From NCBI RefSeq assembly GCF_900156785.1, contig NZ_FTOP01000001.1, positions 62,001-126,000 of the forward strand: 64,000 nt of DNA. The letters run 5' to 3'. The stretch's first letter is position 1. Every line of letters begins with the position of its first letter. The notes below the pieces were generated by a model. It made no database searches, was not told where the DNA came from, and was given only the letters and a program-made list of their open reading frames with translations. A program made the position numbers and the translations under genes. This DNA is from Belliella pelovolcani (GTDB lineage Bacteria; Bacteroidota; Bacteroidia; Cytophagales; Cyclobacteriaceae). Positions 43,660 to 63,733 of the stretch are shown one piece after another.

Positions 43660-44550
43660 TTATTGGTCGTAACCAAATTTCTTCAACTTATTTTTATTTT
43701 TTCTCCAATCTTCCTCCACCTTTACATAGGTTTCCAAGAAGATCTTCTTTCCAAAGAATTTTTCCATTTCTTCCCTGGACTGAATCCCGATACGCTTCAG
43801 TGCTTTGCCACCTTCCCCGATGATGATCCCTTTTTGACTGGATCGCTCTACGTAGATGATCGCTCTGATGCGGATGATTTTCTCCTCTTCATAAAAATCC
43901 TCTATAGCCACTTCTGTGCTGTAAGGGATTTCTTTTTTGTAATTGAGGAAGATTTTTTCTCTGATGATTTCAGAGGCAAAGAAACGTTCCGGCTTATCTG
44001 TAAGTTCCTCCTTATCATAGAAAGGGGGATGACTGGGTAAGCGGTCTAGGATTTCCTGAAGAATACGTTCGGTGTTGAAGCTTTCGGTAGCAGAGATCGG
44101 AATGATCGTCTCGGCCTTGATGCGTTGAGTCCAATAAACTGTCACTGCATCCAACTGACCTTCTTTGCTGAGGTCAATCTTGTTGATGACAAGTAGCACG
44201 GGTACACCCGATTGGTTGATCTTTTCTATTACGTCTTCTATTTCTTCGTCTGTTTCAAATAGATCGGTTACGAAAAGGATCACATCTGCATCCTCCAGAG
44301 ACATGTGCACAAAACTCATCATGTTTTTGTGTAACTCATATTTCGGCTTCAGCATACCTGGGGTATCAGAAAATACAATCTGATAGTTGTCATCATTGAT
44401 GATGCCCATGATGCGGTGACGAGTGGTCTGCGCCTTGGAGGAGATGATCGAAAGTCTTTCACCGATCAGCACATTCATCAAGGTCGACTTGCCAACATTA
44501 GGTTTCCCGATGATATTGACAAAGCCAGCTTTGTGTGTTTGTTCGGTCAT
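43660..44550 (-). CDS. era: GTPase Era
   Basis: 296 aa. GTPase domain: GKPNVGKSTLMNVLIG, SDTPGML, NKIDL; C-terminal KH domain with QKGIIIGEGGKALKRIG, which binds the 16S rRNA 3' end. Full length. TACCTTTG on the minus strand (44566-44573) is a good -7 element 16 bp upstream, though its -33 is weak. Last clear core gene before the accessory region. Confidence 0.96.
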   Translation of the reverse strand: MTEQTHKAGFVNIIGKPNVGKSTLMNVLIGERLSIISSKAQTTRHRIMGIINDDNYQIVFSDTPGMLKPKYELHKNMMSFVHMSLEDADVILFVTDLFETDEEIEDVIEKINQSGVPVLLVINKIDLSKEGQLDAVTVYWTQRIKAETIIPISATESFNTERILQEILDRLPSHPPFYDKEELTDKPERFFASEIIREKIFLNYKKEIPYSTEVAIEDFYEEEKIIRIRAIIYVERSSQKGIIIGEGGKALKRIGIQSREEMEKFFGKKIFLETYVKVEEDWRKNKNKLKKFGYDQ

Positions 44551-44899: not shown

Positions 44900-44953
44900 C
44901 ATCTGCCCTATCCACAAGCCACCAGACTACCCTACACCTCATTTTCAAGACAT

Positions 44954-44980
44954 AAAAAAACCAAGCATCTCTGCTTGGCT
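44954..44980 (-). terminator. Terminator adjoining the tRNA remnant
   Basis: Minus strand CCAAGCA-GAGA-TGCTTGG followed by T7 (plus strand 44954-44960 A run). It lies 5 bp after the tRNA 3' remnant on the same strand, the arrangement of an original tRNA terminator. Confidence 0.75.
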
Positions 44981-44983
44981 TCG

Positions 44984-45003
44984 TAGTAGCGGGAACAGGA
45001 CTT
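44984..45003 (-). other. tRNA 3'-end fragment, putative attachment site
   Basis: Minus strand AAGTCCTGTTCCCGCTACTA reads as T-loop 3' end (AGT), T-stem 3' strand CCTGT, acceptor 3' strand TCCCGCT, discriminator A. The 5' half of any tRNA is missing: DNA to its right is AT-rich. A complete tRNA would begin AGCGGGA; elongator tRNA-Met is my best guess. Nearby 45038-45058 has two GGGGG(A/C)-type runs that might be recombinase arm sites. Interpreted as one end of an integrated element. Confidence 0.55.
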
Positions 45004-45146
45004 ATTCAAATAAATTAAAATCAATAGATTACAGCTTTAGGGGGACAAAACAGGGGGCAATATCCAATGATTTTATGAATTCGAATTGATTTGAATCAAA
45101 TTGAAATAACTAGTTAGTATTAACCATTTTACATTTAATCCTTCTA

Positions 45147-45458
45147 TTACCAAAAACGCTTATGAAGAGATTCATGACATACTGAACATACAGAAACTAA
45201 CCACTTGATCGGTTCTTTACCAAGCTTTCTTTTTGCATACCGTTTATGATGAACTTCTGTCGCTTGAGCCCCACAATATACACATTGCCAATTATCTCGC
45301 CTTAATACAACATATCGTTTTCTCTGCCATTCATCTGACTTAAGATATACATTCCTGTAATAATCACGCCTGCGTTTCCTCTTGATTGTAAAAATCAATC
45401 TTTTAAATAACCAGGGTGCTACAAAGACAAAAATTAAAACAAGGAGCTGAAAATCCAT
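45147..45458 (-). CDS. Membrane-anchored HNH nuclease-like protein
   Basis: 103 aa. N-terminal hydrophobic helix (FQLLVLIFVFVAPWLFKRLIF), then a basic linker, then an HNH/zinc domain: CVYCGAQATEVHHKRY with CxxC and HH, and CSVCHESLHKRFW with a second CxxCH...H. The catalytic HH and terminal H are present. Last gene after the Qat operon in the same direction (46 bp after qatD). Whether it belongs to Qat or is separate is unclear. Confidence 0.8.
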   Translation of the reverse strand: MDFQLLVLIFVFVAPWLFKRLIFTIKRKRRRDYYRNVYLKSDEWQRKRYVVLRRDNWQCVYCGAQATEVHHKRYAKRKLGKEPIKWLVSVCSVCHESLHKRFW

Positions 45459-45504: not shown

Positions 45505-46236
45505 TCATTTCAAATCACTTATTAAAGTGTAGAAATTAGTTTCAATTTGCTTTTCAACTTCACAAAAGTTAACCCCTTTCAAATGCGATATGTGACTAAA
45601 CATTTCTTTCAACTCCCAAGGATGAAGAGTTTTCTGATTATTTTTAATAAATGGCCCATCACTTTCTAGCAATAACTTATTGAGTGGGATTTTAGCAATT
45701 ATTTTTTTACCATTCAAAGATTTCACCATAGCAGGGTTGACAGAAAAATAATAACCTTCTCTAACTATCTGATCTATTAAATTTAAGCCACCTGAATACC
45801 AATGAAAAATAGCAGACTGTATATTGTTTTTGATTAATAGTTCTAAAACTTCTTTTTCCGCTTTTCTAGAATGGATACTTAATATTTTATTTTGCCCCGA
45901 AATACTATTAAGAATTTTAGAAAAGGTATCTATCTGTATCTCTTTTGTAGAGATACCCTCTTTGGAGAAGTCCAAACCAACTTCACCGATATATGATGTT
46001 TTATTAAGGTTCTTTAGAAATAAATCAAATTCCTTTTTGTGTGAATTAGCCATCAAGGGGTGCATTCCTAAAGCCAATCTTATTCTTTTTAATGATTGAA
46101 AATGAGAATATCCCATTTCAAAATGACTTGGAAGGTTAGTCATTGCTAAAACAGTTATATTAGCTTGTACAGAACCCTCAAGAACTTGTCTTGGATTAGG
46201 ATATAAATCTATGTGGCAGTGTGTATCAACAATCAT
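45505..46236 (-). CDS. qatD: QatD: TatD-family nuclease of the Qat defence system
   Basis: 243 aa amidohydrolase-fold metal-dependent DNase. HxH in VDTHCHID (H6, H8), Glu in YIGEVGLDFS, His in SIHSRKAE and FHWYSGG, Asp in LLLESDGPFI: all TatD metal ligands. It overlaps qatC by 4 bp (ATGA) as the last of four genes, and this context, not the sequence alone, makes it QatD rather than a housekeeping TatD. Confidence 0.88.
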   Translation of the reverse strand: MIVDTHCHIDLYPNPRQVLEGSVQANITVLAMTNLPSHFEMGYSHFQSLKRIRLALGMHPLMANSHKKEFDLFLKNLNKTSYIGEVGLDFSKEGISTKEIQIDTFSKILNSISGQNKILSIHSRKAEKEVLELLIKNNIQSAIFHWYSGGLNLIDQIVREGYYFSVNPAMVKSLNGKKIIAKIPLNKLLLESDGPFIKNNQKTLHPWELKEMFSHISHLKGVNFCEVEKQIETNFYTLISDLK

Positions 46237-47621
46237 TTAATCCCTAATTCAGTTTTTATAAATGTGTTTCCTTTATCGATAAACAACTGAAGAACTTCTT
46301 GTTTCGACCTTAACACCATTTTAGCATAATCTTCAAGTTTATCAATTTCAATATTTCCATTTACTAAAAGGTCTCTTTTCATTTTTTCTAGAGAAATATC
46401 CTTTCTCAAATAACTAATTAGCGCAGGTAAATCTTTGCTAGCCTCTCTATTTTTAGCATTTGTAATGAAGTTACCATATTGTTCATTTCTATCTAGACCT
46501 GCTTTATGTAATGCAGCTCTCCTATAAACACATGGCATACATCTACCACAATGATGCTTTTCATTAGAATTGTCCTTATGTTGATGCCTTCGCCCTCTTT
46601 TGCCACAAGAAACTGAATCTTGGAATATGCTCTTTATAAAAGGTGACCTTGTTGCGCAATCAATAAACATCTCTCCTTTTGTTTTAAATGTATATGGATT
46701 ATCTAGGAGTGTTGTTATTCCCACCTCTATAAGTAATTCTTGAGTGTTTTTTATGACATAGGGATGTGTTGTTCTAGTACTTAAAGAGCTCACCCTTGAT
46801 GGGGTCAATGGATAGTTGATTGAGATTGTCCCATTCTCAGGAATTATCAATTCATCAATTGGGGATAGGTAACAACCTAAACCAATAAAAAATAGAGATC
46901 GACTGCGGTAATTGTTTTCTACTGTAACTCTGTTACCATCAGTATCTTTTCTTGATAGTGCTAATTTTGATTGTATCCAATATATTTTATTTTGGTATTC
47001 TGCCTCCAAATGTCCAAAAAGTTTATTTTGGTCATCGTTGGGACCAGGAGATTTTGAGTCAAAATGAGAAATCAAGAGGATTCTTTCATCACTACTTAGC
47101 TTTTCTAGCTCATCTATGACACCAATTAAAGAATCTAATCCACCTGAAAATAAACTAGTAGATTTTATAGAATCTATTTTATAAGTTGGTGGAATTTCTC
47201 TTCTTCTTGATAAAGGACGTGGATAAAAAAGCGAATCCTGTGTGTTTTGTATGAAAGAAACTAGCCAATTATCGCCTGTTAAGAAATCTAATATCAATTT
47301 CAATTTGTCTTCCTTTCCTATCCAAATGCCTATGTTGTTCACCGGGAACACTACTTCTATATCTCTTGACCAACCATCATTTGAATAAATCGCCCTACTA
47401 AGTAAGTTATCTACGCCATAAACTATTGCCGTTATGAGAAAGAAATCAAATTTAACCGAAGAAAAGTCAATAAGAAAATCACTAACTTTTTCAAATGGAT
47501 ATTTAGAACCCATATTGAAACTTAACAAAACATTCCTATCAATACCTCTGTCATTATAATTAAGGTACAAATCTGAAAATTTGCCATATTCGGCTTCTTT
47601 AATTGCTACTGTTACTTTCAT
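46233..47621 (-). CDS. qatC: QatC: QueC-like PP-loop ATPase of the Qat system
   Basis: 462 aa. PP-loop SGGLDS at residues 159-164 and a zinc site in the C-terminal third (CGKRGRRHQHKDN then HHCGRCMPCVYRR), as in 7-cyano-7-deazaguanine synthase QueC. The protein is twice the size of QueC, with a ~150-residue N-terminal extension, and no queuosine biosynthesis gene is near. Probably modifies a protein or nucleic acid in defence. Overlaps qatD and is 2 bp from qatB. Confidence 0.9.
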   Translation of the reverse strand: MKVTVAIKEAEYGKFSDLYLNYNDRGIDRNVLLSFNMGSKYPFEKVSDFLIDFSSVKFDFFLITAIVYGVDNLLSRAIYSNDGWSRDIEVVFPVNNIGIWIGKEDKLKLILDFLTGDNWLVSFIQNTQDSLFYPRPLSRRREIPPTYKIDSIKSTSLFSGGLDSLIGVIDELEKLSSDERILLISHFDSKSPGPNDDQNKLFGHLEAEYQNKIYWIQSKLALSRKDTDGNRVTVENNYRSRSLFFIGLGCYLSPIDELIIPENGTISINYPLTPSRVSSLSTRTTHPYVIKNTQELLIEVGITTLLDNPYTFKTKGEMFIDCATRSPFIKSIFQDSVSCGKRGRRHQHKDNSNEKHHCGRCMPCVYRRAALHKAGLDRNEQYGNFITNAKNREASKDLPALISYLRKDISLEKMKRDLLVNGNIEIDKLEDYAKMVLRSKQEVLQLFIDKGNTFIKTELGIK

Positions 47622-47623: not shown

Positions 47624-48373
47624 TTATTCAAATACGTTAAAAACATTTTGTTGAATATTCTTTATTAGCCTATCTGCCTCCTCTGAACTCCAATCTAAAT
47701 TTTGAAGCGGGTAATTTTTGTTTTCATCATTAACTTGTTCAAAGACATAATTTCTAATTTCATTAAAAAGATTATTGACATCATTCTCTTTTTTACTTTT
47801 TATAAGGTTGTCATAAAACCATCTTGACAAAAGTGTATTAATATAATATCCAAAGTACCTTATAATGATATCTTCCAAATTACTGGTTGTAAAGGTTTGT
47901 TCCAATAAGGTTTGTAAGTCATTAATTGACTCAGCCTCTCCCATTAGTTCTTCCAATAATAATCGTGTAGCTTCTTTTGCTGCATCATCATCTATTGATG
48001 TTGCATTACTTGAGCAGTATTGAATTAAGTGATTAATTACATCATCAACTGATTTATTATCAATATCAATTAATCCAGTTGATTCAAGAGTCTCTCTTAT
48101 ATTATTGCCTGAACTGATAAACTTTGAAAAGACTCCTCCGATTTTTCTTGCAGTTCTAACACTGCTTCTTCCACCTGCTTTTGAACCACCACGTCCGCCA
48201 GTTGATGCTCCACCTAGCGCTGAAACAAAATGTCTCATAATATTTTGTAGTTTTTGAACTGGAATAACAGACGAATCACAATTTGAGGTAAGCGAAGAAC
48301 TTAGCGTACCCCAATTTGGAATCATTTTACTTTTTTTTACTGAACCATCAGAAAATGATTTAGATGTTCCCAT
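47624..48373 (-). CDS. qatB: QatB, Qat defence system component
   Basis: 249 aa. N-terminal MGTSKSFSDGS with a glycine/serine-rich stretch (GGASTGGRGGSKAGGRSS) and a conserved helical C-terminal part (RLLLEELMGEAESIND; VNDENKNYPLQNLDWSSEEA). The glycine-rich N-terminus is typical of QatB, a protein of unknown biochemical role. Two bp from both qatA and qatC. Confidence 0.85.
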   Translation of the reverse strand: MGTSKSFSDGSVKKSKMIPNWGTLSSSLTSNCDSSVIPVQKLQNIMRHFVSALGGASTGGRGGSKAGGRSSVRTARKIGGVFSKFISSGNNIRETLESTGLIDIDNKSVDDVINHLIQYCSSNATSIDDDAAKEATRLLLEELMGEAESINDLQTLLEQTFTTSNLEDIIIRYFGYYINTLLSRWFYDNLIKSKKENDVNNLFNEIRNYVFEQVNDENKNYPLQNLDWSSEEADRLIKNIQQNVFNVFE

Positions 48374-48375: not shown

Positions 48376-50274
48376 TTATTTTTTTATATTAAATGCTTTA
48401 CTCGCTTTTGACTTTCCATCTTTAAAGAAATTAATCAAAAACTCACCAAATTCAGGATCAGTCTTAAAGTCTGCTAATCTTAAAGCAACCGCAGGTTCAA
48501 TATCCGACACACTGATTATTTTAAGAGCTTCCATATAATGATAAACTGCATTTTCAATTTTCATCTCTGTCATTGTATTGAATATGTCATACAACCGTTT
48601 TTGTTTCGGGTTTCTTTTTAGATTTGAGGATAAAAGATTGAAAAATGCATCTTTTTCAATATCGCTAAATGGTTGAAATTTTTCAGAAAGTAGAGATTTT
48701 GTTACTGTTGCCGTCATATTATCAGGTAATAACTCATTAAACAAAGCCCTTACTATTGGCGGAATCATACTAGTCGCAGTGATTGAATTTTCCAATTTAT
48801 CACGAGCAATCCAATAATAATCTCGCAAATCAACTCCTGACAATAACGGTTCTATTTGAAACCATTTTATTATTTTAGGTTTACTCCATTCCTTGAATTC
48901 AGAATCTTTTATTTCTGAAATTACATCATCAATTACCTTTTCCTTAGACATAGCTTCGATATCGGTTATTTCTTTCGGTACTCCGTCTTGAGCAATTTGC
49001 CATTCAAATAACTTCTTGAACAATTTGGGTTCAGAGTATTCAAGTATCATCATTTTTGCAAGAACGGCATCATCAAAACTTTGTAAAGATGCCACTTCTG
49101 CAAGTCTTTTTCTGATAGTATAAGTGTTTAAAAAACGTTTAATCTGTCTTGGGTTTCCATACAAACTATTTGTGATTAAGGGTACTAATGAAGGAATTGT
49201 AATTACATTATCTTTAACTTTGCCAAACTCCCCTGCTTCTAAAATCTTCTCAAAATTCGATAATCCAAATGCAGAATACTTATTTGTAACCCTATACTTC
49301 CTAAATTCATCAAGTACTCTTTTAAACTTAGTATCTCCTATCTCCTTTTTACATATAAGCATTGATATATAAGTTTCGACTTCTGATTCAGAAAGTCTGG
49401 GTAAAGAATATGGAAGCTGAATTAATTTTTCTAAGTAATCAATCACAATCCGGTTGTTATCTTCCTCAATTTCTTTGTTGTTTTTATACTTGTGTTTAAT
49501 TGCATATTCCACAATCCGAGGGTCTGCTCCAATGATGAATGCTGTTTTGGGAACGTTAAGAAAAAGTTTAATTGCTTCAAGGTTTTCAATAATTCTTTCT
49601 GGGCTACATCTATCTAAATCATCTATTATAACTACTAATCTTTTAAAGTTTGTAGCTGCTAACAAGTCTGAAAAATCCTTTCTAAATTCAGATACTGCAT
49701 TTGTCAAATTTTTATCTTGTTCTTTTCCTTTTTTTACAAAGGCTTCAAATATCCTTTTCCCTTCTTCAGATTGAAGCTTTTTAATTATTTTATCTGGATT
49801 GTCTCCCCATTCTGCCATTTTCTGATATGCAAATGGCACTAAACTAAGCCCTCCTGTAAAATATGCCGAAACAGCAGGTAGGGCAACATTCTTCATAACC
49901 ATACCAGCGCCACGCATCCAATCAATAGATTTCCAAAGTTTCTTTGCTTTCTCCTTTATTGTATCTTTTAACTCAGCGGAAATTTTTCTATTGTCCTCTA
50001 ATTCTTTGAGAATCGAATTGAGCAATGCTGCTTTAGCATCATCATATCCCTCAAAAGTCCATCCATTAAAATAAATACAGAGTGAGTCCTTATCATCTTC
50101 TTTCTCAAATTCTTCTTTTACTATTTGTAAAATACTAGATTTTCCGCTTCCCCAATCACCAAAAACGCCAATTGTAATAGGCAATACAGATTCATCATTA
50201 AGAATGTTAATTAACAATTCTGCGTGTACTCTAAATCCTAAAAGGTCTTCTGATGTTTCATTATCTGCCCACAT
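48376..50274 (-). CDS. qatA: QatA: KAP-family P-loop ATPase of the Qat system
   Basis: 632 aa. Walker A GVFGDWGSGKSS (39-46 core), KAP insert with hydrophobic segments (AVSAYFTGGLSLVPFAY region), Walker B LVVIIDDLDRCSPE, and sensor region YGNPRQIKRFLNTY. KAP NTPases are membrane-associated STAND-like ATPases common in phage defence. First gene of the tight qatABCD operon; the upstream 440 bp contains a palindrome at 50493. Confidence 0.92.
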   Translation of the reverse strand: MWADNETSEDLLGFRVHAELLINILNDESVLPITIGVFGDWGSGKSSILQIVKEEFEKEDDKDSLCIYFNGWTFEGYDDAKAALLNSILKELEDNRKISAELKDTIKEKAKKLWKSIDWMRGAGMVMKNVALPAVSAYFTGGLSLVPFAYQKMAEWGDNPDKIIKKLQSEEGKRIFEAFVKKGKEQDKNLTNAVSEFRKDFSDLLAATNFKRLVVIIDDLDRCSPERIIENLEAIKLFLNVPKTAFIIGADPRIVEYAIKHKYKNNKEIEEDNNRIVIDYLEKLIQLPYSLPRLSESEVETYISMLICKKEIGDTKFKRVLDEFRKYRVTNKYSAFGLSNFEKILEAGEFGKVKDNVITIPSLVPLITNSLYGNPRQIKRFLNTYTIRKRLAEVASLQSFDDAVLAKMMILEYSEPKLFKKLFEWQIAQDGVPKEITDIEAMSKEKVIDDVISEIKDSEFKEWSKPKIIKWFQIEPLLSGVDLRDYYWIARDKLENSITATSMIPPIVRALFNELLPDNMTATVTKSLLSEKFQPFSDIEKDAFFNLLSSNLKRNPKQKRLYDIFNTMTEMKIENAVYHYMEALKIISVSDIEPAVALRLADFKTDPEFGEFLINFFKDGKSKASKAFNIKK

Positions 50275-50492
50275 TGTTTACAAAGTTATTTACAGTAATA
50301 TTCATAGTTATCTGCTTTAATCAAAATGGCCCTCTTCCTATTAGATGTATCTTTAATAGAAACATAAAACAAAATTTTTAATCAAAAATGTAACTGATTT
50401 TAACATTAAATATTTTCTAGTTAACACTATTGATATTATCAGAAGGTTATCTTAAATAAATTTTGATTAAATCTACCCCTTTCTTAACTCCT

Positions 50493-50521
50493 AAAATATA
50501 CCCATAACAGGGTATTTTTGA
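50493..50521. promoter_or_regulatory. TACCC-N6-GGGTA palindrome, copy 1
   Basis: TACCCATAACAGGGTATTTT within 50499-50518 is repeated almost exactly at 62469-62488 (TACCCACAACAGGGTATTTT). Both copies are upstream of minus-strand genes (here qatA, 220 bp away). Possible shared regulator site. Nothing else is evident in 50275-50713. Confidence 0.45.
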
Positions 50522-50713
50522 TAAATTAAGAGCAAAAAGAACAAAAAATTAACTTTCTCTTCCCCAAAAGCCTTTACTTCAGGGGAAAGAAAATTAAAAC
50601 CAGACTACTTTCTTGCATTCTTTGCACTTCTTGCACTATGTGGTCATACGGCTTGGAAATGCTGATTTTGAGGTCAATTTATTGCAAGGTTAATGCAAAG
50701 AGTGCAAAATAAA

Positions 50714-50838
50714 TTACTTCCCTTTCTTGGCATTCTCTAACTCTTCTATGAAAGAGAATACATTGGAGGAAGGGTTGTCAAAAAGTTTCGACTCTTTGGC
50801 TCTTTCGCACGGTCTCTTGGTTTGTTCCGTTTACTCAT
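50714..50838 (-). pseudogene. rloB remnant: N- and C-terminal fragments joined by deletion
   Basis: An ATG at 50836-50838 overlaps the rloA stop by 8 bp, the expected position for rloB. It reads MSKRNKPRDRAKEPKSRNF, a basic start typical of RloB, then runs to a stop at 50746. In another frame, FDNPSSNVFSFIEELENAKK ends at TAA 50714-50716 and resembles the RloB C-terminus (NPSxNV...EEL). The ~150-200 residue core is missing. I infer a single large internal, frame-changing deletion. Confidence 0.6.
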
Positions 50839-52087
50839 TAAAAATCCCCTTTAACATTTCCAATGAGTCACTAACGATAGGTACAGCATCAAACCTTCCT
50901 TGAAGGTATGCTTTCTCCAAGTCCATTGTATCTCTAAAATCACTGTAATCATACAATGAATATACTTCTGTTGAAGCATCCTCCTTTTTATTGACGAAGT
51001 ATATCTGATCTTTACGCAATTTCTTCAAGTCTAGAAACTTTGTATTGTGCGTAGTACAAAGCAATTGAGCACTTTTACTCGCTCTGAAAAAATTGAAAAT
51101 ATACTCAATGATCTTAGGATGAAGACTTTCTTCAATTTCATCTATCAAAAGTATCTTGTTGTTTTTCACGATATCCATGATCGTAAGCATAATAAAAAAC
51201 AACTTTATTGTACCCTGGGATTCTTCAGTCAAGAAGTCAAACCCTTTAAGAGGATCCCTTTTGTGAAAAGTGGTGATTTGCAGACGCTCCTGTACAACCT
51301 CTTCTACGGTAACCGTGAGCGTATCCAGATTAGCATTGAAATTTTTACCTGGTTGTTTCAGAGATCTAATCTTCACGTCTACAATATCACTATCGGCAAT
51401 TTTCAAAGCATCGATCAAAAGCTCTTTATTTTCCTTACTCAATCTTTCAATAGCCGACATACCAAAACCTAGGTATTGTAGAATAAATGTATTGTGGAAG
51501 TAATTGAAGATCTCTTTAGGAATCTCCCTATCCATTTGGCTTGCTCTACTGATATATAGGGTTTTGTTGGAGGTGTTTTCAGCTACATCCATTGGCCTCT
51601 TGATTACATCTCCAAAAGTATAAATATCACTCTTCTCTTTACCTCTTCTTTCATCTCGGGTAAAAACTTCTTTGATCCTTCCTTTTGGATAAAAATGTAA
51701 GCTTTCCGCAATGATCTGTGTATTGGTAAGACTGAAAGCATACTCATACTCAATCCCTTTGGATAAGAACCTTATAAAGTATTTGCTTGGCTTATTGGCA
51801 TACCCATCAAATTTGAATGGTTTGAAATTGAAAATGGTATTTTCATTATGCGTATGTGATCGAAATACCAAGGTATTGCAAAAACGAATGGCCTTGATGA
51901 CATTGCTTTTTCCAGAAGCATTGGCTCCATACATGACCATCGTTTTGAGAACATCAGTTTTATCATGGCGAAACACATTATCCACTAATGCTCTAGCATT
52001 GGCGGATTTAATGTTCGCTGCTCTAAAATCTAGACAAACTTCATCTTTGATGGAGAAAAAATTGCTAAGACGAATCTCTAATACCAT
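50831..52087 (-). CDS. RloA-like AAA ATPase (AAA_15/AAA_21)
   Basis: 418 aa. SMC/RecF-like ATPase: N-terminal LSNFFSIKDEVCLDF, Walker A GANASGKS (54-61), signature-like FLTEESQGTIKLFF, Walker B ILLIDEIEESLHP, and H-loop TTHNTKFLD. Such ATPases pair with RloB or other effector nucleases in abortive-infection loci, but here the rloB partner is reduced to a remnant. A TATATTTG on the minus strand (52116-52123) is a candidate -7 element. Confidence 0.85.
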   Translation of the reverse strand: MVLEIRLSNFFSIKDEVCLDFRAANIKSANARALVDNVFRHDKTDVLKTMVMYGANASGKSNVIKAIRFCNTLVFRSHTHNENTIFNFKPFKFDGYANKPSKYFIRFLSKGIEYEYAFSLTNTQIIAESLHFYPKGRIKEVFTRDERRGKEKSDIYTFGDVIKRPMDVAENTSNKTLYISRASQMDREIPKEIFNYFHNTFILQYLGFGMSAIERLSKENKELLIDALKIADSDIVDVKIRSLKQPGKNFNANLDTLTVTVEEVVQERLQITTFHKRDPLKGFDFLTEESQGTIKLFFIMLTIMDIVKNNKILLIDEIEESLHPKIIEYIFNFFRASKSAQLLCTTHNTKFLDLKKLRKDQIYFVNKKEDASTEVYSLYDYSDFRDTMDLEKAYLQGRFDAVPIVSDSLEMLKGIFNE

Positions 52088-52303: not shown

Positions 52304-53419
52304 ATGACCTACAACTGGCAACATCAAAATTGGCCTAATTTCCAGTATGATATGGAGACATTACAGCCTTTATTTCTAGAATTTTCCTTGGAATGGGCTG
52401 AATTGAGCGGGATGGAAAAAGGACTCACTACAGATTTGGAGGAAGAAACGGTCATCAACATCATGGTTTCCGAAGCCATAAAATCCTCTGCCATTGAAGG
52501 TGAGTATTACAGCAGAGAGGATGTCATGTCTTCAATCAAGAATAAACTTGGACTAAACAAAATACCTGTTAGGATAAAAGATCGCTATTCGGCTGGGATT
52601 GCTGAGTTGATGGTAGAGGTAAGAACTAGCTTTAAAATGCCGCTAAGTACAGAAATGCTAAAAAATTGGCACAAAATCCTCTTTATTCATGTCAAGAATT
52701 TACTTGTGGGCGATTGGAGAACGGGGCAGGAACCCATGCAGGTGGTTTCTGGATCCATAGGAAGAGAAATAGTGCATTTTGAGGCTCCACCATCAGATCG
52801 GGTGGCCAAAGAAATGGAATTGATGGTTGATTGGTATAATCAAGCCAACTTCCCCCAAATCAATGTCATCGGTTCAGCTTTGTTAAAATCAGCCATTGTG
52901 CATTTATATTTTGAATCCATACATCCATTTGAAGATGGTAACGGAAGAATCGGCAGGGCGCTTGCAGAAAAAGCATTATCACAATATCTGGGAAAACCAG
53001 TCTTATTGAGTATTTCTAAAATCATTGAAACGGATAAAAATGCCTATTACCAGGCATTGAAAGATGCCCAAAAGAGCTTGGATATTACCAATTGGATAGC
53101 CTATTTCATCAAAGTGATCATCACTGCCCAACGAGACTCTAAAGCTTTTGTAGCATTTCTTCTGGGGAAGGTGAAGTACTTTGATAAGTATAAAAACTTC
53201 ATGGATGAAAGACAGACCAAAGTCATTGAAAGAATGTTTGAAGCAGGTCCAGAAGGCTTCCAAGGAGGCATGAGCGCTAAGAAGTACATGTCCATCACTC
53301 AGGTTTCCAAAGCCACAGCTACCAGAGACCTGCAATTCCTTCACGAAAATGGACTTTTGATCCAATCAGGAGCAGGTAGATCTGTGAGGTATGAGTTGAA
53401 TTTACTAAATATGAAATAA
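52304..53419 (+). CDS. Fic family protein (AMPylator) with winged-helix tail
   Basis: 371 aa. Catalytic motif HPFEDGNGRIGR around residue 207 matches HxFx(D/E)GNGRxxR. An N-terminal inhibitory motif S-SAI-EG (about 63-68) makes it a class II, self-inhibited Fic. The C-terminal ~70 residues (ITQVSKATATRDLQFLHENGLL ... VRYEL) form a winged-helix DNA-binding domain, so the protein probably represses its own promoter through the repeats upstream. Three bp separate it from the next gene. Confidence 0.93.
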   Translation: MTYNWQHQNWPNFQYDMETLQPLFLEFSLEWAELSGMEKGLTTDLEEETVINIMVSEAIKSSAIEGEYYSREDVMSSIKNKLGLNKIPVRIKDRYSAGIAELMVEVRTSFKMPLSTEMLKNWHKILFIHVKNLLVGDWRTGQEPMQVVSGSIGREIVHFEAPPSDRVAKEMELMVDWYNQANFPQINVIGSALLKSAIVHLYFESIHPFEDGNGRIGRALAEKALSQYLGKPVLLSISKIIETDKNAYYQALKDAQKSLDITNWIAYFIKVIITAQRDSKAFVAFLLGKVKYFDKYKNFMDERQTKVIERMFEAGPEGFQGGMSAKKYMSITQVSKATATRDLQFLHENGLLIQSGAGRSVRYELNLLNMK

Positions 53420-53421: not shown

Positions 53422-53772
53422 ATGATGGATCAAAAACGCGAAGAGGAGAAGGAAAGACGAAAAAGAAGAAATCAAAGATTGATTACGGCATTCTTTGTTG
53501 GATTATTTTTTATGAATATTCTGTTAATGATGATCTTGCCTCCATTTTCAAAGGAAGCTGAAATTAAAGGTAAAGTCATTTTTTATGTGCCAAATCGTGG
53601 ATCAGCATTAGTGTTTTTATCTAATAAAATATTTCCAGTATTTGAAGATAACTTTACAATATTCGATAAAAATGTAAATGTTGGAGACTTCATCCAAAAA
53701 GCAGCGGAATCCGATTCTCTTATTATTTACAGAAATAATATAAAGACTGTAATCAAGCTGGAGCCTGAATGA
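53422..53772 (+). CDS. Small membrane protein downstream of fic
   Basis: 116 aa. Highly basic/acidic N-terminus (DQKREEEKERRKRRNQR), one transmembrane helix (LITAFFVGLFFMNILLMMILP), then a ~75-residue external beta-rich domain. Start ATG 53422 or 53425. Co-transcribed with fic (3-bp gap). No known family recognised; a partner of Fic is possible but unproven. Confidence 0.6.
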   Translation: MMDQKREEEKERRKRRNQRLITAFFVGLFFMNILLMMILPPFSKEAEIKGKVIFYVPNRGSALVFLSNKIFPVFEDNFTIFDKNVNVGDFIQKAAESDSLIIYRNNIKTVIKLEPE

Positions 53773-53781: not shown

Positions 53782-54477
53782 TTAAGTGGAATAATAAAAA
53801 TACCACCCATTTTTTAATTCAATAATTCGTCCGACAATAAAGCCGAATGGAGGTATTCCATCTCCTAACTTAATATCCCCTTTATAGGATTTGATGTATC
53901 CATATTCATTGTCGATAAAGCCATCAATTGTTAATACCAAAAATTCCTCATCTCTGTGAAGTGAAATGATATCAGCTTTAATCATATTTTGCTGAATGTT
54001 AAAAACATCATCTATTGATATATTATTTTCCTCCATATAATCCCCAAATGCTGCTTTAATTTGAGTTTTGGTTGAAAGCTTTTTACTGTCCCCTATATAA
54101 CTTTCATCAATCCTTTTTGAATATCTTAGAAAGTCAGACATTTCATGAATACCGCTCTCTAAGCTAAGGTTTTCTATTTTTTCTAATCTAGATTTATTCA
54201 GATTGTAATGGAGTTGGTGACTTAAACTGTTTTTTGGAAATAGGGAAAATGAAAATGAAATTAGTATGATAATGACAGGTGCATATGAAACTAATTTCTT
54301 AACCCCATTAAAAAAAATGAATACGGTTGAGAAAATCAATCCTAGAAATAAAACAACTAACAATGTCAGTACATCAAATAAAGGACCTAGGAGTAAAGAA
54401 TACTGTAATTCAAAAACTGTTGCTAAGAATATTAATATGCTAAATACAAACGCCAGAATTTTTATGATTGAATTCAT
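53782..54477 (-). CDS. Membrane protein of unknown function
   Basis: 231 aa. Three N-terminal transmembrane helices (IIKILAFVFSILIFLATVFE; FDVLTLLVVLFLGLIFSTVFIFF split region; LVSYAPVIIILISFSFSLF), then a soluble C-terminal ~140 residues. AT-rich, convergent with the preceding gene. No family recognised. Confidence 0.6.
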   Translation of the reverse strand: MNSIIKILAFVFSILIFLATVFELQYSLLLGPLFDVLTLLVVLFLGLIFSTVFIFFNGVKKLVSYAPVIIILISFSFSLFPKNSLSHQLHYNLNKSRLEKIENLSLESGIHEMSDFLRYSKRIDESYIGDSKKLSTKTQIKAAFGDYMEENNISIDDVFNIQQNMIKADIISLHRDEEFLVLTIDGFIDNEYGYIKSYKGDIKLGDGIPPFGFIVGRIIELKNGWYFYYST

Positions 54478-54553: not shown

Positions 54554-54943
54554 TTATTTCACCAACTCTTGACTACCATTCAATTCATAAGGCTGAATTA
54601 ATACCTCTACAGGCAAACCTAAGAGCTCGTGAAGGTTTCTGATCATATCTATAGTCAAAGCTCGCTTACGGTTGAGTACAAGGCTTACAGTGGTCTTACT
54701 GCCAATGGCAGTGATCAAGTCTTTATCTTTAAGCCCTTTCATTTCCATAGCTTCTTTGATGGCCGTGATAGGCTCGGGCAAAGCGATAGGATAATGCTCT
54801 TTTTCATACTTCTCTATCAGCGTCACCAATAGCTCTGCTTCCATTCCTTCAGGACTATCTGGATTGGCATCAAATATTGAAGAAAGCCTCTTTATCGCTT
54901 TTTCATATTCCTGCTCCGTGGTGATGATTTTATCCCATTTCAT
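54554..54943 (-). CDS. higA: HigA-type antitoxin (XRE HTH)
   Basis: 129 aa. N-terminal helical neutralising region, then HTH: IKEAMEMKGLKDKDLITAIGSKTTVSLVLNRKRALTIDMI (read in parts) and LHELLGLPVEVLIQPY. Lies 22 bp after the toxin gene, the toxin-first order typical of HigBA. Expected to bind the operator at 55303. Confidence 0.88.
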   Translation of the reverse strand: MKWDKIITTEQEYEKAIKRLSSIFDANPDSPEGMEAELLVTLIEKYEKEHYPIALPEPITAIKEAMEMKGLKDKDLITAIGSKTTVSLVLNRKRALTIDMIRNLHELLGLPVEVLIQPYELNGSQELVK

Positions 54944-54965: not shown

Positions 54966-55271
54966 TTAAAACTGGTCAACTGTATTGGCATCAACTTTAT
55001 CATATTCGGTATGTGTGCCAATAAATTTGATAAATACCCACTGCCTTACATAACTAACCTGAACGATAAGCCGATATTTATTTCTTGCGATATTAAATAC
55101 CACCCTATTATTTTTGACTGGATCAGCATCAGGAAAGTCTTTGACTACATCCATTGACTTTTGCCAATCAGCTCCTTTTGTAATGGATATCCATGTTTCA
55201 AGACTGGCCTTCGCATCGGGATGCTTTTCATAGAATTTTACCAGATTTCTTAAAGCAATGATGTTTTTCAA
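54966..55271 (-). CDS. higB: HigB-type toxin (mRNA interferase)
   Basis: 101 aa of the HigB toxin family. NLVKFYEKHPDAKASLETWI at the N-terminus, KNNRVVFNIARNKYRLIV and QWVFIKFIGTHTEYDKVD (terminal His/Tyr region) match the RelE-like ribosome-dependent RNase. Toxin gene first, antitoxin second. Confidence 0.9.
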   Translation of the reverse strand: MKNIIALRNLVKFYEKHPDAKASLETWISITKGADWQKSMDVVKDFPDADPVKNNRVVFNIARNKYRLIVQVSYVRQWVFIKFIGTHTEYDKVDANTVDQF

Positions 55272-55454: not shown

Positions 55455-56498
55455 ATGAGATCAGCAATTCTAGTTTCCTCAACTGAAAGACTTGAAGGTT
55501 ATGAAATTGAAAAGTATTTTGAATTGATTTCTACAAATGTTGTCTTAGGTACAAACTTCTTTTCAGATATAGGAGCATCATTTACTGACTTTTTTGGAGG
55601 GAACTCCGAAATATATCAAAGCAAACTCGAAAAAATTTACAAAGTGGCTATTGATAAGTTGAAGAATAAAGCAGCAACTTTTAATGCTAATGGAATCATT
55701 GGAGTAAGAATAGATTTTGATGAGATTTCAGGGGGTGGTAAATCGATGTTTATGATTTCTGTATGTGGTACTGCCGTGAAATTGAAACTTTTAAAGAAAG
55801 TTGATTTAATAAAGGAGAATAATTCGTCTTTTACATCAGATGAACTTGATGTTATGTCTAGAAAGATTGCCATCAAACTAAAAGTAGATCAAAATCAAAC
55901 TCTAAGTAGCAGTGACTGGGAATTTTTAATTGAGAATTCATTAGAAGATCTTATTCCAAATTTGGTGGAATCATATTTTAAACTGGTTAAGGATTATCCA
56001 TACTCAGACCAATTAAAAATTTATAAAGGTTATCTAACTGTATTGCTGAGACAGAGCACTCCAGAATTAGTTGAGAATACACTTTATGGAATGTATGCTT
56101 CAAACCCTGAAATTATTTCACAATTAATTGTTGAATGTGAGGTGTTTTCCCCTTCCTTAACGATAGATTTAATTGAATCAGGAAAAATACATTATGCTAT
56201 AGCAATTCTTGAAGCCAAAAAGAGTTTTTATACAGCTGATGATTATACTAAAATGGTAAATATTTTGAATCTACTAACCACTTTACCTGATACTGGCAAA
56301 ATTGATGCAGTAAAAGGAATGTTGGGTTCGAAAGAAAAATTCATTTGTGACAAAGGTCATCAAAGCCCACCGGATTTAGTTTATTGCACTGAATGCGGTC
56401 GTAACATAAAAGGTGTTACCAAAGGAGAAGAAATAGCCATAAATCAATTCTCAATGAAAATTGAGGCTTTAGAGGAGTTATTCAAAACTAAAACCTAG
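55455..56498 (+). CDS. YbjQ-domain protein with C-terminal zinc ribbon
   Basis: 347 aa. N-terminal ~115 residues are a YbjQ/DUF74 domain (TERLEGYEIEKYFELIS, NVVLGTNFFSDIGASF, NANGIIGVRIDF, SVCGTAVKL). A helical middle follows, then a single zinc ribbon near residues 299-318 (CDKGHQSPPDLVYCTECG) with one CxxC. The domain combination is unusual. AT-rich island gene. Function unknown. Confidence 0.78.
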   Translation: MRSAILVSSTERLEGYEIEKYFELISTNVVLGTNFFSDIGASFTDFFGGNSEIYQSKLEKIYKVAIDKLKNKAATFNANGIIGVRIDFDEISGGGKSMFMISVCGTAVKLKLLKKVDLIKENNSSFTSDELDVMSRKIAIKLKVDQNQTLSSSDWEFLIENSLEDLIPNLVESYFKLVKDYPYSDQLKIYKGYLTVLLRQSTPELVENTLYGMYASNPEIISQLIVECEVFSPSLTIDLIESGKIHYAIAILEAKKSFYTADDYTKMVNILNLLTTLPDTGKIDAVKGMLGSKEKFICDKGHQSPPDLVYCTECGRNIKGVTKGEEIAINQFSMKIEALEELFKTKT

Positions 56499-56585: not shown

Positions 56586-57908
56586 TTATTTTACAGCCAA
56601 TTCTTTTGAAAGATTGAATATTGAAACTTGATTTTCAGCAGGATATGCAGAACCTTTAATTCTAGATCTAATTATTCCTTTGTAACCTATAATCCTGAGT
56701 AAAAGAACCTCTAAATAAAATATTCCAGTATTCAGTAAAGGCCATGTTTTACCTTTGAGTTTTTCCAAATCTTTCTTTTTAGATTCTGAATAATGAACAT
56801 ATGCATTTCTTATTAAAGGAAATACATAGGCAAAATCTTCAGACTTATTTAGATCGAATTCTTTGAAAGTTTTTCTGTATTCCTTAGGGAATTCTGTTGA
56901 TAAACTGAAATGAAAGAGAAGACTTCTAATTTTATTACTTGCGTAATTTTTTTCTTTGTCAGATTCACCAAAAGCTTTAATTTCTCCTTTCTCTAAAACT
57001 AGCCAACTATATAGAGTTTCAAAGCTGTTTTGTAAAAAAATGATCGAGCCGTTAGTGTAACCAGAGTTATTTAAAGCTTCTAAATACCAATGGATCACAA
57101 AATCCATTTTTTCAAAATCACTTTCAGTTTCCGTGACATTTAAAAATTTATTCCATAGTGAGCAAAATTCATCATCAAAGCGGAAAGGTAACCAGGATTG
57201 AACATATTTATGATGATCAGTAATGTATGGTGAATAGTCTTCCCAAATTATTTTTTCATCACTTGAATATGCTTTCAGAAATAGTGGTGCAACTCTCCTA
57301 CCATTTAAAAAAGATAAAAATATTTTAAGCCTCTTAACAATGAAATTGACTCTATTTAGTGGAGTGACTTTGTTGAACTTTATCCTGCAATTGTTAGAGA
57401 TAATATAACCTCCTTCGCTCTTAATTGCTTTTTTGCTTTTTTCATCAAGAATGTTTTGAATCTCTATTGAGTGATCAGTAGAAATAAAACTTATATGTCC
57501 TAACCTTGAACCTTTAGGACTTTTCTGGTATGATAACCCAAAATATTCTCTAAAATTAACTAGATTAAAGTCTATGTATTTTATCTTTTTCTTACTTTGA
57601 GTAAAAATTAATTTTTCATTAATGCTTCCTTTAATGTTAATAGTTTCGCCATAAAATTTATTTTCTATAAAAAATTTCACCTTTTTGTTTTGACTCCCAA
57701 TTGTAATTGATATTTCATTTTTATCAAATATTGCCTTCAAATCAGAGCAATCAAGGATTTCAAATCTTAATTGATGCCTTGGAACCCATTTGACAAAGAT
57801 TTTTCCATTAAAAAGATGAGTACCAAAATGAAATTCTCCTTGGTATATCAATATTTCTTGATTTGGGTATTCCATAATTATGGTAGAAACTATTCCTTTC
57901 TTTCTCAC
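56586..57908 (-). CDS. ApeA-like protein with C-terminal HEPN domain
   Basis: 440 aa. N-terminal ~170 residues are beta-rich, like the ApeA N-terminal domain; the C-terminal part is helical with FLQNSFETLYSWLVLE and R-NAYV-H near residue 365, fitting the HEPN RNase motif Rx4H. The overall architecture suits ApeA anti-phage proteins, which cleave RNA and abort infection. GTG 57906-57908 overlaps the IIG stop by 4 bp (GTGA), indicating translational coupling; ATG 57875 is the alternative start. Confidence 0.65.
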   Translation of the reverse strand: MRKKGIVSTIIMEYPNQEILIYQGEFHFGTHLFNGKIFVKWVPRHQLRFEILDCSDLKAIFDKNEISITIGSQNKKVKFFIENKFYGETINIKGSINEKLIFTQSKKKIKYIDFNLVNFREYFGLSYQKSPKGSRLGHISFISTDHSIEIQNILDEKSKKAIKSEGGYIISNNCRIKFNKVTPLNRVNFIVKRLKIFLSFLNGRRVAPLFLKAYSSDEKIIWEDYSPYITDHHKYVQSWLPFRFDDEFCSLWNKFLNVTETESDFEKMDFVIHWYLEALNNSGYTNGSIIFLQNSFETLYSWLVLEKGEIKAFGESDKEKNYASNKIRSLLFHFSLSTEFPKEYRKTFKEFDLNKSEDFAYVFPLIRNAYVHYSESKKKDLEKLKGKTWPLLNTGIFYLEVLLLRIIGYKGIIRSRIKGSAYPAENQVSIFNLSKELAVK

Positions 57909-60900
57909 CCATCACCCCCTTCCACAATCCTAATCTCCTCCTCCGTCAACCCATAAAGTTCATAAACCAATTGATCGATTTGGCTTTCTAGATATGTTGT
58001 ATTTAAAGAAGGCGCTTCTTTTTTATTTGATAGAATTGTATTTACTAGTTCAGTAATTTGTTCACGTATCGATTCATTTCCAGTAGCTATTGGGATTTGA
58101 CTGAAATACTTCCAAATAAGTTGATAACCATTTTGAATAGCTGTGCAATATTTTGAAATAAGCCACCAACCTATTCTTGAATTTAATATCCCTAGTAGTA
58201 CTTTGTCATTAGTAGGTAGAATCCACATTGAATTATTACAGTACAAATTTTCTTCATCATAAATGAAACATGGTTTTACTTGAAATACCTGATACATAAT
58301 TTTCGGCTTCTCAAACTCTTTCCAATAAGCAATCGAATCTTGTGTCTCAAACCATTTTCCAGATGTCTTTTTTCTTGAGCCCTTTAATCCACTTTGTTCT
58401 AGACGCTCAATCCCAAAGCCCTCTAAGTGTTTCTTAATTCCTTGAAATTCTTCAATGTCTATTTTTAAACTAGGAAATGTTCCGATTAAATATGAATTGT
58501 CAGACCTGGAATACCAAGGCTTGACATCTCTTCCTCGAAGTAATGGTTTTATGAGATCAATTGATCTTGGATCTAATTCAAAAATATACTGTTTCTTTAC
58601 TTCATCAATAAAAAATGCTTCTGATAGACCTGTTTTTATACCATAGTTCGCTTCACCGTTAAGAAATTCATATAATGGTTTGCTTACTTTTTTAATCTTT
58701 ACCAATAAGTTTTGGTCCTCAGCATTACTTATAACCCATGTTTCATCTGATAGTGTTTCTTGATTTATCTCTCCTTTTTTCGTAACCACATAACTTGCGA
58801 ATCCATCTGGGAAATCAAGAGTTGAAATCGGTACTGATGTAAAGGAACTGGCGGAAGCTGATTTTTTAGCCGTTAAAATGCAAGGGTAGGTAGTGGCTTC
58901 TTCAAATACTTGTAAATCTCCAAAGTCCAATATTTCTACCAAATCATTTTGAAGTAGAAAATTTCGTGCTGCTTTTCCGTATCCTGCTTGCATAAATTTA
59001 TTAGGCATGATATAGTTGATAAAACCATTTTCCTTTAAAATTGAAAAACCTCTCTCAATGAAGAAAACATAAATATCAGCAGTGCCTGAATAAGTTGAAA
59101 AAACTGATTTAAATAATGCTTTAAATTCTTTCAATTCCTCCTGCCTAATATACGGCGGATTCCCAATCACCACATCAAAGCCCACAAAATCCCCTGATTC
59201 ATTCAATACCTCCGGAAACTCAAACCTCCATTCAAAGGCATTTTCATAGATCTTGTTGTTTTTGATCTCCTCGATCTCGGTGGAGAGCTTTTCCAGCTCG
59301 GCTTCTATCTTTTCTACTTTCTTTTTCCTGTCCTTTTTCTCCTTAGCAGATACCTCAAATAGTCCAGTTTGCATGGTGAGGTTATAGAGCTCTCCACCAA
59401 GTTTAGCCTTACGCTTGATCTTGGGATCATTATTGGCTATCTCAGAGCGAAAGTCAGACTTGATCTCTGCGATCAGTCGCTCCATTTCTCGCTTTTCCTG
59501 TTTGTTTTGGGCATTTCGATAAGTAGTCACCGCCATGCGATAGCTGTCTATCGAGAACTTACTTTTCTTCAGTGCCTCACTCAGATCAGCATCGATAGCA
59601 AATCGGCTTACAAGGGAATTCCCACATTTGATATTGATATCGATGTTTGGCAGGGTTTCCAATGCTCTAAGACCTGTCAGGTTTTCAAAACCTGACAGGT
59701 CTTGCTTGTAGTAAGCATTCTTCAGCAACTCAATCCATAACCTCAATCGGCAAATCTTCACCGAATTGGGATTGATATCTACGCCAAATAGACAATTTTC
59801 GATGATCGTCTGCTTTTCATGAAACAGGGTTTCTTGGATACGTTGGCTTTCTTTATTGGATGGATTGTATTCAAAGAGTTCTCCCTCTTCGTCAGTCACG
59901 ATCAGTTCATCATTGACTACTTCTACTTGATACTCTTTCAACCGCTTGCCATCCCGATCTTGCAGAATTTTCAAGTCGTTTTTTACCGCAATCATTTCAT
60001 TGAGTGCAGATACTAAAAAGTGTCCAGAACCTACAGCAGGATCACAGATTTTGATGCTGTTGACGATTTCATTGGCTTGTTTCCGATCTTCTATTTGATC
60101 ATATATCTCGTCCAGACTTTGCGAAAGCTCTGAACTCTCGGATAGCTTAAATCCTGCTTCTTTGAACTTCTGTACCACAGCCCTTCGGATGGTCTCCCGA
60201 CACATGTACATGGTGATAAAACCAGGGGTGAAGAATGATCCATCTTTGTAGCCATTGATTTTCTCGAAGATCAGGCCAAGAACAGAAGCATTGATCAGGG
60301 TCTTGTTGTCCTCTTGAATATCTTCCGAACCTTCGGAACTGAAATCATAAGCATTCAAGAATTCAAACAGATACTCCAAGGTGGAGAGGTTCCCTGTTCT
60401 CTTTTTCCCCTGTTCGTTTTTCAGTACCGTGGAAGAAATGATTGGCACTGTCTTTTCATCTCTCAGATTGGAGATAAATAGCGTATCATGCTCCATATCT
60501 GTTGGCTCAAAGAGTGAGCTGTTCAGATAAGGCACATTTCCAAAAACCTTGATTATCTCCTCGGACCTGTCTTCATATTTTCTGGCCAAGACCTTAAAAA
60601 ACAAACTATTCAGGTCATCGTAATTTTTGATCTTATCCAGGTTCAGGAAGGAATAGGATTTATCACCCTTATGGTAAGTGATCAGCTGTGCTTCCAGTAG
60701 TTTCAGGAATAGTATTCTATTCACCCATGTGATGCTCAGCTCAAGGGCTACATTGAAGAGCCTTTCATCAATAGTATTGCCATATTGACTTGGTCTTTCC
60801 AGTCGGCTGATCTTATCCAAGCTATCCAGTTCTACAATGGCATTTTCCAAAATAGAACCCGCATGCCTTTCACCAGACTTGTTTCTTCCGATCAGCTTTT

Positions 60901-61726: not shown

Positions 61727-61917
61727 TCTCCCTGCTTTGTTATTGAAAAATTCCAACAACCAATTTGCTTGTTTTTAGTGGGATTTGCAATAAAACGAAC
61801 CCAGTACTTTAGTTTTTTGAGCTAATTTGACAGTTTTTGACTCAAATTAAAACTTGAGCTAATGTAAAATCCAATTAAAAACATTTAATAATTGAATTTT
61901 GGCAATTGGTAAAAATT

Positions 61918-63008: not shown

Positions 63009-63284
63009 TTAAATTTTATCTTCTTTTGATTCAATATAATTTTCCGCATAGATCGTTCTACTGTAGCTTCCAATATTATAGTTTATGCTTTCAGCAAGTT
63101 CTAATAAATGACTTGGATTGATTTCATATAGATCACCGAGCTTTGCAGCCTGTAAAATATCTAATTTCCTGATACCATTTTCTATCTCCAAATATTCTGA
63201 ATCAGTAAGGTCTGCTTTGGCAGCCACCAAGTCAATATCATACTTAAACTCTTCACGTAATTTTTTTAAAAGTGTATATTTCAT
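63009..63284 (-). CDS. Small HTH-like regulator with INYN motif
   Basis: 91 aa, degenerate XRE-type helices (LLKKLREEFKYDIDLVAAKADL; IENGIRKLDILQAAKL) and C-terminal INYNIGSYSRTI. It shares this INYN.G.YSR.I motif with the next gene. Overlaps that gene by 4 bp (ATGA), so the two are translationally coupled. Confidence 0.7.
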   Translation of the reverse strand: MKYTLLKKLREEFKYDIDLVAAKADLTDSEYLEIENGIRKLDILQAAKLGDLYEINPSHLLELAESINYNIGSYSRTIYAENYIESKEDKI

Positions 63285-63706
63285 TGTATTGGTTTATCAA
63301 TTCTATTCATATTTTTAATTATCAAAAATAGCTCTTCTTTGTCTTTTTTTAAAGATTCTAATTCTTTAATTAAATTACCAATTTGGATATCTTTCTCCTT
63401 AATTATTCTTTCGTAAAATTCAGAATTATCATTTTTGCCTTCGTGGTATTTATTTGTCGATATAATGGACCTACTGTATTCACCTGTATTATAATTTATT
63501 ATTGGTAAATCTTCTGATAAAAAGTAATCAGGTTTGACATGGTAAAACTCTGCTAATTGTTGTATTCTCTCTAAGGTCAACTTAGTTTTTCCTGACTCTA
63601 AATTAGAATATGTTTTCTGATTAATATCCAAAACATTGGCCACATATTCTTGAGAGAAGTCTCTTGACTCTCTTAATATTCGAATAATTTTCTGTGCTTT
63701 GACCAT
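63281..63706 (-). CDS. XRE family transcriptional regulator
   Basis: 141 aa. HTH_3 domain: IIRILRESRDFSQEYVANVL, NQKTYSNLESGKTKLTLERI and LAEFYHVKPDYFLSED. It continues with INYNTGEYSRSI, a motif also in the neighbour, and a C-terminal coiled coil (EFYERIIKEKDIQIGNLIKEL). Start ATG 63706 suits the HTH; an ATG at 63733 adds nine residues. Confidence 0.85.
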   Translation of the reverse strand: MVKAQKIIRILRESRDFSQEYVANVLDINQKTYSNLESGKTKLTLERIQQLAEFYHVKPDYFLSEDLPIINYNTGEYSRSIISTNKYHEGKNDNSEFYERIIKEKDIQIGNLIKELESLKKDKEELFLIIKNMNRIDKPIQ

Positions 63707-63733
63707 ATTAGAAATATTTCGACTAAAATTCAC

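Follow-up and report, generated by a model that had tools for sequence, protein, structure and literature searches.

Beside the era gene of the host genome (G000) stands a fragment of a tRNA 3' end with a terminator, and on its other side begins AT-rich DNA filled with defense genes. The locus raises the question of whether the fragment marks one boundary of an island integrated into a tRNA gene and, if so, what brought the island there and whether it can still move. We analyzed a window of 64,000 nucleotides, the whole stretch of DNA under study (C30:62001-126000 of a 4.1-Mb draft genome in 44 contigs), and followed the island beyond its right end.

The tRNA fragment and its complete counterpart

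The boundary beside era comprises three features, given here in window coordinates.

43660..44550, minus strand: era (GTPase and KH domain), the chromosomal left flank beside the scar (domain search)
44957..44982, minus strand: intact rho-independent terminator in its chromosomal version, with C after CTA as in the related genome G007 (scan and fold)
44984..45002, minus strand: scar of the initiator tRNA 3' end, the distal att core (sequence, pattern search, repeat match)

A sequence-only reading had taken the fragment for the last 20 nucleotides of a tRNA. The tRNA 3' end is real, but the length needs correction: the scar, AGTCCTGTTCCCGCTACTA (minus strand, 45002-44984), is 19 nucleotides long and consists of 16 nucleotides of tRNA body and a CTA trailer, the Rfam match stopping at the end of the body. 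The body part contains the end of the T loop, the 3' strands of the T stem and the acceptor stem, and the discriminator A. ARAGORN called no tRNA at the scar, and a 21-nt pattern of it with up to three mismatches occurred once in the window and not at all in 100 shuffles. Two further claims of the same reading, that AT-rich DNA has replaced the 5' part of the tRNA and that the terminator right after the fragment is intact, agreed with our results. The DNA 5' of the scar is AT-rich and unrelated to the tRNA, and the GC content falls across the scar from 44.5% (44001-45000) to 31.0% (45001-46000). A terminator scan reported a terminator-like structure with 11 pairs at 44982-44957, and the sequence 44981-44946 folds with 10 pairs at −13.1 kcal/mol (z −3.76), none of 200 shuffles being equally stable.

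Searching the whole genome with a 26-nt pattern (at most three mismatches) gave a single match besides the scar, on the same strand at C30:128470-128495. The complete gene, a tRNA-Met(CAT), lies on the minus strand at C30:128479-128552, equivalent to window positions 66479-66552, and hence to the right of the window, as had been predicted; its 5' end, CGCGGGATGGAGCAG, is that of an initiator type. The two loci share a 49-bp direct repeat with 47 identical positions (E 5.6e-15), which includes the terminator and whose copies are 21.5 kb apart. No additional copy of this tRNA 3' end was found in the genome, another 90% match, on contig C39, being mostly a terminator behind a tRNA-Arg gene. At Rfam gathering scores, the stretches L011 and L012 gave only the tRNA and, further right, a fluoride riboswitch. 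One end carries the whole tRNA gene and the opposite end a repeat of the last bases of that gene in the same orientation; the arrangement is that of a tRNA-integrated island, and the fragment is a genuine tRNA 3'-end scar. The assembly is a 44-contig draft, which could raise the suspicion of an artefact; we consider this extremely improbable, as the scar and the tRNA both lie inside one 454-kb contig and the single-contig genome G003 has the same tRNA and scar, 23.4 kb apart.

Initiator tRNA loci showed other peculiarities in the genomes compared. Degenerate tandem copies of the initiator tRNA are found upstream of the real gene in G000 (C30:128553-128704), G002, G003, G004 and G005; they are clear in these five of the eight genus genomes aligned, doubtful in G006 and absent from G001 and G007. 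In G017 (L020) and G055 (L132), tRNA-Glu genes and tRNA-Met genes of the initiator type form tandem arrays, with five and eight tRNA-Met copies, respectively, in the stretches examined. At four loci (L131 in G020, L133 in G069, L135 in G103 and L136 in G022), small GIY-YIG ORFs (Pfam 4e-14 to 2.7e-17) near the initiator tRNA are followed by a tRNA 3' half with an altered anticodon arm and a terminator. The two ORFs of G020 are identical, 95 aa long and spaced by 361 bp, G069 and G103 have one each of 83 aa, and in G022 the ORFs continue reading from the tRNA end. These units have the appearance of very small selfish elements copying the end of the tRNA, and nothing relevant to them was present among the literature matches. 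The upstream neighbor of the initiator tRNA also varies (G000/G007, G001/G003 and G004/G006), being a histidine kinase, a LytTR-type regulator or a 226-aa protein; given such differences between congeneric species, the initiator tRNA locus itself seems mobile.

Defense cargo and the tRNA-proximal end

The GC content of the island is 33.5%, compared with 40.1% in window positions 1-44982. The right side had been described as rich in defense genes, and profile matches bear this out: Qat, AbiLi-like, Fic, HigBA, HEPN-type and type IIG genes, several of them unrelated systems, stand next to each other, and QatA, B, C and D are adjacent, the match of QatB being weak. The features from the scar onwards are as follows.

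45003..45146, minus strand: distal arm of the element, similar to arms in G003, G006, G051 and G008
45147..45458, minus strand: HNH endonuclease (Pfam), scar-adjacent in G006 too (86% aa)
45505..46236, minus strand: QatD, TatD-like nuclease (Pfam, PADLOC profiles)
46233..47621, minus strand: QatC, QueC-like (PADLOC profile)
47624..48373, minus strand: QatB, weak PADLOC profile match (E 2.5e-8) in the right position
48376..50274, minus strand: QatA, KAP-family ATPase (Pfam, PADLOC profiles)
50468..50809, minus strand: noncoding repeat located 5' of qatA and found repeatedly in related islands; what is left of an RloB-type gene lies in its 5' part
50831..52087, minus strand: AbiLi-like AAA ATPase (profiles), 99% aa to a G004 protein with an intact RloB partner gene
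52304..53419, plus strand: Fic protein, SoFic-like, DUF4172 (profiles)
53422..53772, plus strand: small protein without a match in Pfam or PHROGs at E<=0.01
53782..54477, minus strand: protein without convincing family, one sub-threshold Pfam match
54554..54943, minus strand: HTH protein, presumed HigA antitoxin from its position, also matching the PD-Lambda-2_B profile
54966..55271, minus strand: HigB toxin (Pfam)
55455..56498, plus strand: YbjQ-domain protein (Pfam)
56586..57908, minus strand: ApeA-like HEPN protein, just below the Pfam cut-off, no PADLOC match
57905..61759, minus strand: type IIG restriction-methylation enzyme (profiles)
63009..63733, minus strand: pair of overlapping HTH regulators with identical proteins (100% aa) in G003
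63923..64000, plus strand: start of an HTH regulator (profile) that continues beyond the window (L012:5923-6294)
L012:7360-8106, beyond the window: 248-aa protein, placed where G006 and G051 have their integrase (genome comparison)

One more protein, with no Pfam family, lies between the type IIG enzyme and the HTH regulators.

The RloB-type partner of the AbiLi-like ATPase survives at 50740-50838 as its first codons fused to the tail, out of frame and with a stop after 30 residues; the gene is intact in G004 (184 aa, PF13707). The repeat at 50468-50809 is noncoding and combines a long imperfect palindrome (TTGCACTCTTTGCA...TGCAAAGAATGCAAG) with a CCCC...GGGG hairpin. Copies of it are located between or upstream of cargo genes in the islands of G006 (C84:1474-1627, 6160-6367, 6785-7133 and 9265-9480) and G003 (C1:532464-532622 and 536518-536671), with a few elsewhere. 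A repeat search within the island, run on its two halves separately and thus not comparing the scar with the tRNA, revealed only short, weak families.

An integrase had also been expected beyond position 64000, and here the prediction was not supported. The Pfam scan of 19 island proteins gave no integrase and no relaxase or excisionase family, and none of the eight six-frame PF00589 matches in the genome fell between the two repeat copies. A serine recombinase was considered and rejected, the single six-frame PF00239 match in the genome being on another contig and interrupted by a stop. The integrase of the related G006 island had no match in the G000 genome at E<=0.001. The integrase of a typical tRNA-integrated island was thus not found, nor was the combination of own integrase and relaxase or mobilization genes that defines an IME; with no integration or transfer genes among the 19 proteins or in the PF00589 and PF00239 searches, the island corresponds in this respect to a CIME.

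Where G006 and G051 have the integrase, G000 and G003 both have the gene of the 248-aa protein and 1 kb of repeats. We considered two candidates in this region and rejected both. The noncoding 1-kb stretch by the tRNA might have held an integrase remnant, but tblastn of the G000 and G003 stretches with the integrases of G006, G051 and G004 and the presumed Xis proteins gave nothing below E 0.05; the stretch consists of repeats with many copies, at the least, elsewhere in the genus genomes. The 248-aa protein, for which neither Pfam nor PHROGs gave a match at E<=0.01, might have been a new recombination protein, but copies of its gene occur in G003, B. aquatica, Arthrospiribacter and Indibacter without a tRNA in the 13-21 kb inspected around them. 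The module of this gene and the repeats is also present at C1:613.5-615 kb of G003, where it shares 96% identity with the block of G000 along 1.4 kb, and, among the matches listed, in part at many other sites of the genus.

While the core repeat has been kept on both sides, the sequence after the tRNA differs from that of the integrase-bearing relatives. The terminator next to the complete tRNA of G000 is host-like, unlike those of G006 and G051, so what stands at the proximal end is not the attL arm that would be expected. Considering this terminator together with the occurrence of the module elsewhere in the genus, the mobility end has most likely been deleted, with chromosomal-type DNA now in its place, and excision of the present-day island may be impossible.

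Related islands and a site without the island

To place the island among its relatives, we compared one genome per species, with defense assignments made from profiles. In 7 of the 14 genomes searched for PF00589 (G000, G003, G004, G006, G027, G028 and G051), the tRNA and a displaced 3' end were found on the same strand of one contig. A PF00589 match lies between the two in four of these seven (G004, G006, G027 and G051) and is missing from G000, G003 and G028. The tRNA and the displaced end are on separate contigs in G008, and the copies in G025 are short and in tandem; the stretches fetched from G001, G002, G005, G007 and G033, some of them ending at contig borders, showed no displaced copy.

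The distal arm, just inside the scar, connects G000 with several of these islands. With 45003..45146 and 30 bases on each side as the query, and thus with up to 30 scar bases included in the figures, the arm of G000 is 88% identical to that of G003 over 198 bp, 86% to G006 over 193 bp, 77% to G051 over 125 bp and 71% to G008 over 125 bp. Two of these genomes show what a complete element may look like. G006 and G051 have a tyrosine integrase directly after the tRNA (64% identical to each other), then one further gene and a presumed Xis gene, the latter label coming from a sub-threshold HTH_17 match in G051, while its G006 counterpart matched no family. In G051, MobC and a relaxase complete the set of genes that define an IME; G006 has DUF5712 and DUF3987 proteins in addition and the integrase part of the definition, mobilization being suggested by DUF5712. 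The cargo is again defensive: Avs2, Gabija, a TIR protein and a type IIG enzyme among nine proteins scanned in G006, and a type IIG enzyme and NsnAB-like genes among seven in G051. Matches to the G006 integrase at E<=0.001 were found in 51 of 118 genomes, those of near full length and at least 64% identity being confined to G006 and G051. Although its arm is related, G008 has no match to this integrase in the 3.7 kb after its tRNA, so the link between arm and integrase rests on two genomes. G004 and G027 have a different arm and an integrase at the scar end, the two integrases being 66% identical to each other.

In G004, a further island-like stretch with an AbiLi-like/RloB pair and Fic genes (C3:107004-119000) follows the scar of the 6.5-kb integrase-bearing element, and a search for a second scar (13-nt pattern, at most one mismatch, 54 kb) found none. 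The far flank of the G003 island (C1:538712 onwards) is a dehydroquinase gene (PF01220) and not era, which is 1.1 Mb away; the chromosome has therefore probably been rearranged at the site.

The earlier reading called for a comparison with relatives lacking the island, and G007, of the same genus, is such a relative. Its tRNA is directly followed by CGAAGCCAAGCAGAAATGCTTGG and then by the sequence found between scar and era in the window, joining tRNA, terminator and era-side flank over two contig ends. The flank match breaks off close to the end of contig C13 and continues shortly after the start of contig C14, which leads into era; both contig ends carry GTAGTCTGG beside short mirror-image ends (GGATCAGTC / GACTGATCC region). 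The flank looks split by an inserted IS, while no transposase was seen at the two contig ends, and we infer that C13 and C14 adjoin; apart from this IS-like insert, the site is uninterrupted by an island. G007 also helps to locate the crossover. Immediately 3' of CTA, the scar and G007 both have a C; a T stands there beside the tRNA of G000 and in both G003 copies. The crossover most likely took place within the 19-bp core, and the terminator at the scar is the chromosomal one, in line with the earlier claim that it is the original.

These comparisons bear on the possibility that the scar goes back to a second tRNA gene, duplicated or decayed, or to tandem tRNA pseudo-copies, with the cargo arriving independently. 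Degenerate tRNA-like and tandem partial copies do occur beside this tRNA in the family. Yet nothing of the remaining tRNA can be traced at the scar, whose inner side is an arm with relatives in the islands of four other genomes, and G007 has tRNA and flank joined with no scar, which leaves such an origin very improbable.

The other boundary suggests a more recent event. Upstream of the tRNA, G000 resembles G007 up to CTTACTTTTGTACCACAATATCAGCA, which we take to be the tRNA promoter, and G003 beyond it. The 152-bp leader of the tRNA (window-equivalent 66553-66704, C30:128553-128704) is identical between G000 and G003 at 151 of 152 positions, while era is 82.9% identical (736 of 888); at the identity of era, the probability of at most one mismatch in 152 is 1.3e-11 if sites are taken as independent and equally constrained. 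Island blocks of 1.2-4.2 kb are 91-97% identical between the two genomes, and one 1-kb stretch 99.5-100%. The pattern points to a recent exchange with a G003-like lineage that included the tRNA. As the exchange extends past the tRNA, unlike site-specific recombination at a 3' end, homologous recombination is its simplest account and probably the process involved. For the tRNA-side module, the chromosomal copy of G003 is 96% identical to the G000 block, compared with 82% for the longest other copy in G000 among the matches listed, a hint that the composite arose in a G003-like lineage.

The whole island might then have arrived by homologous recombination and not by an integrase, a G003-like unit of leader, tRNA, island and scar replacing the resident tRNA through one crossover at its promoter and another in its 3' end or terminator. 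The switch at the presumed promoter, the leader and block identities and the lack of a PF00589 match in either island agree with this account. Weighing against it, homology at the proposed crossovers is limited to ~20-30 bp at the promoter and 19-50 bp at the scar or terminator, the comparison takes in one genome per species, and the islands are mosaics, with no relative of Qat in the G003 stretches fetched and type IIG gene blocks 74-83% identical, so a single clean swap cannot account for everything. Overall, we place its probability slightly below even. A bolder extension, to which we give only tentative credence, is that leader, initiator tRNA, island and scar form a portable defense cassette that needs no integrase and can be swapped into related genomes, with the essential tRNA as both anchor and guarantee of retention.

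Origin of the island and known systems

With no integrase found in the G000 island and one in the G006 and G051 islands with their related distal end, we consider it highly probable that the island is a decayed mobilizable island, an IME reduced to a CIME-like state, and that the scar is the distal attachment site of its site-specific integration. In this scenario, an IME would have recombined with the 19-bp core in the T loop and acceptor of the sole initiator tRNA gene found, supplied the tRNA with a new 3' end and displaced the old 3' end and its terminator to the far side, beside era. An integrase of the G006/G051 type is the candidate for the original integration. This integrase and the mobilization genes, which stand beside the tRNA in G051 and partly in G006, would have been lost later, chromosomal-type DNA taking their place and leaving 21.5 kb of defense cargo with two core sites.

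Alternatively, the island might still be a working CIME, excised and moved when a helper island with the cognate integrase integrates alongside by accretion. Both core sites are intact, G006 and G051 show that possible helpers exist in the family, and examples of CIMEs at tRNA/tmRNA genes or other att sites have been described (PMC5704250, PMC3146451). Against this, the tRNA-proximal arm of these possible helpers is missing, with host-type DNA in its stead, and the G000 genome contains no match to the helper integrase at the threshold used; we regard a working CIME as unlikely.

If decay of the carrier is accepted, the locus means that a cluster of defense genes can persist beside an essential tRNA even though the mobile element by which they came has decayed. 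The similarity to G003 suggests that an integrase-less island is still shareable between species, and the present one, without an integrase of its own, has probably been swapped in this way. The initiator tRNA is, with the exact junctions given here, a concrete defense hotspot in the genus and its relatives. No paper among the literature matches listed described an island at the Belliella initiator tRNA, and the island is of a familiar mobile type and not a new kind of system.

Among the closest known systems are the G006 and G051 islands themselves, which share with the G000 island the tRNA, the core (the G051 scar differing by one base), the related distal arm and the defense cargo, and differ by their integrase and further mobility-type genes. 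Within the cargo, the Qat genes agree with QatABCD in number, A-B-C-D order, single strand and PADLOC profile matches, and differ by the weak QatB match and a small HNH gene downstream. Integrase-less hitchers such as CALINs have been described (PMC11389934), in a text whose available part has no occurrence of "cis-mobilizable". CIMEs are described as decayed elements that keep two att cores and have lost their integration and transfer genes (PMC5704250). The G000 island likewise keeps both cores, with no such genes found; unlike a CIME, its tRNA-proximal end lacks the arm of the possible helpers, which makes cis-mobilization doubtful. A close parallel is provided by the ssrA islands of Dehalococcoides, as presented in PMC3146451. 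These islands target a single-copy tmRNA gene by insertion in the T loop with a serine recombinase, are bounded on the far side by a direct repeat of 20 bp from the 3' end of that gene, with a conserved motif just inside the repeat, and carry reductive dehalogenase genes; they occur with or without an integration module, and the authors suggest that those without might be cis-mobilizable elements. The single-copy RNA gene, the T-loop site, the 3'-end repeat, the motif inside the repeat and the existence of integrase-less forms are shared with our island, whereas here the target is an initiator tRNA, the related islands have a tyrosine integrase and the cargo is defensive.
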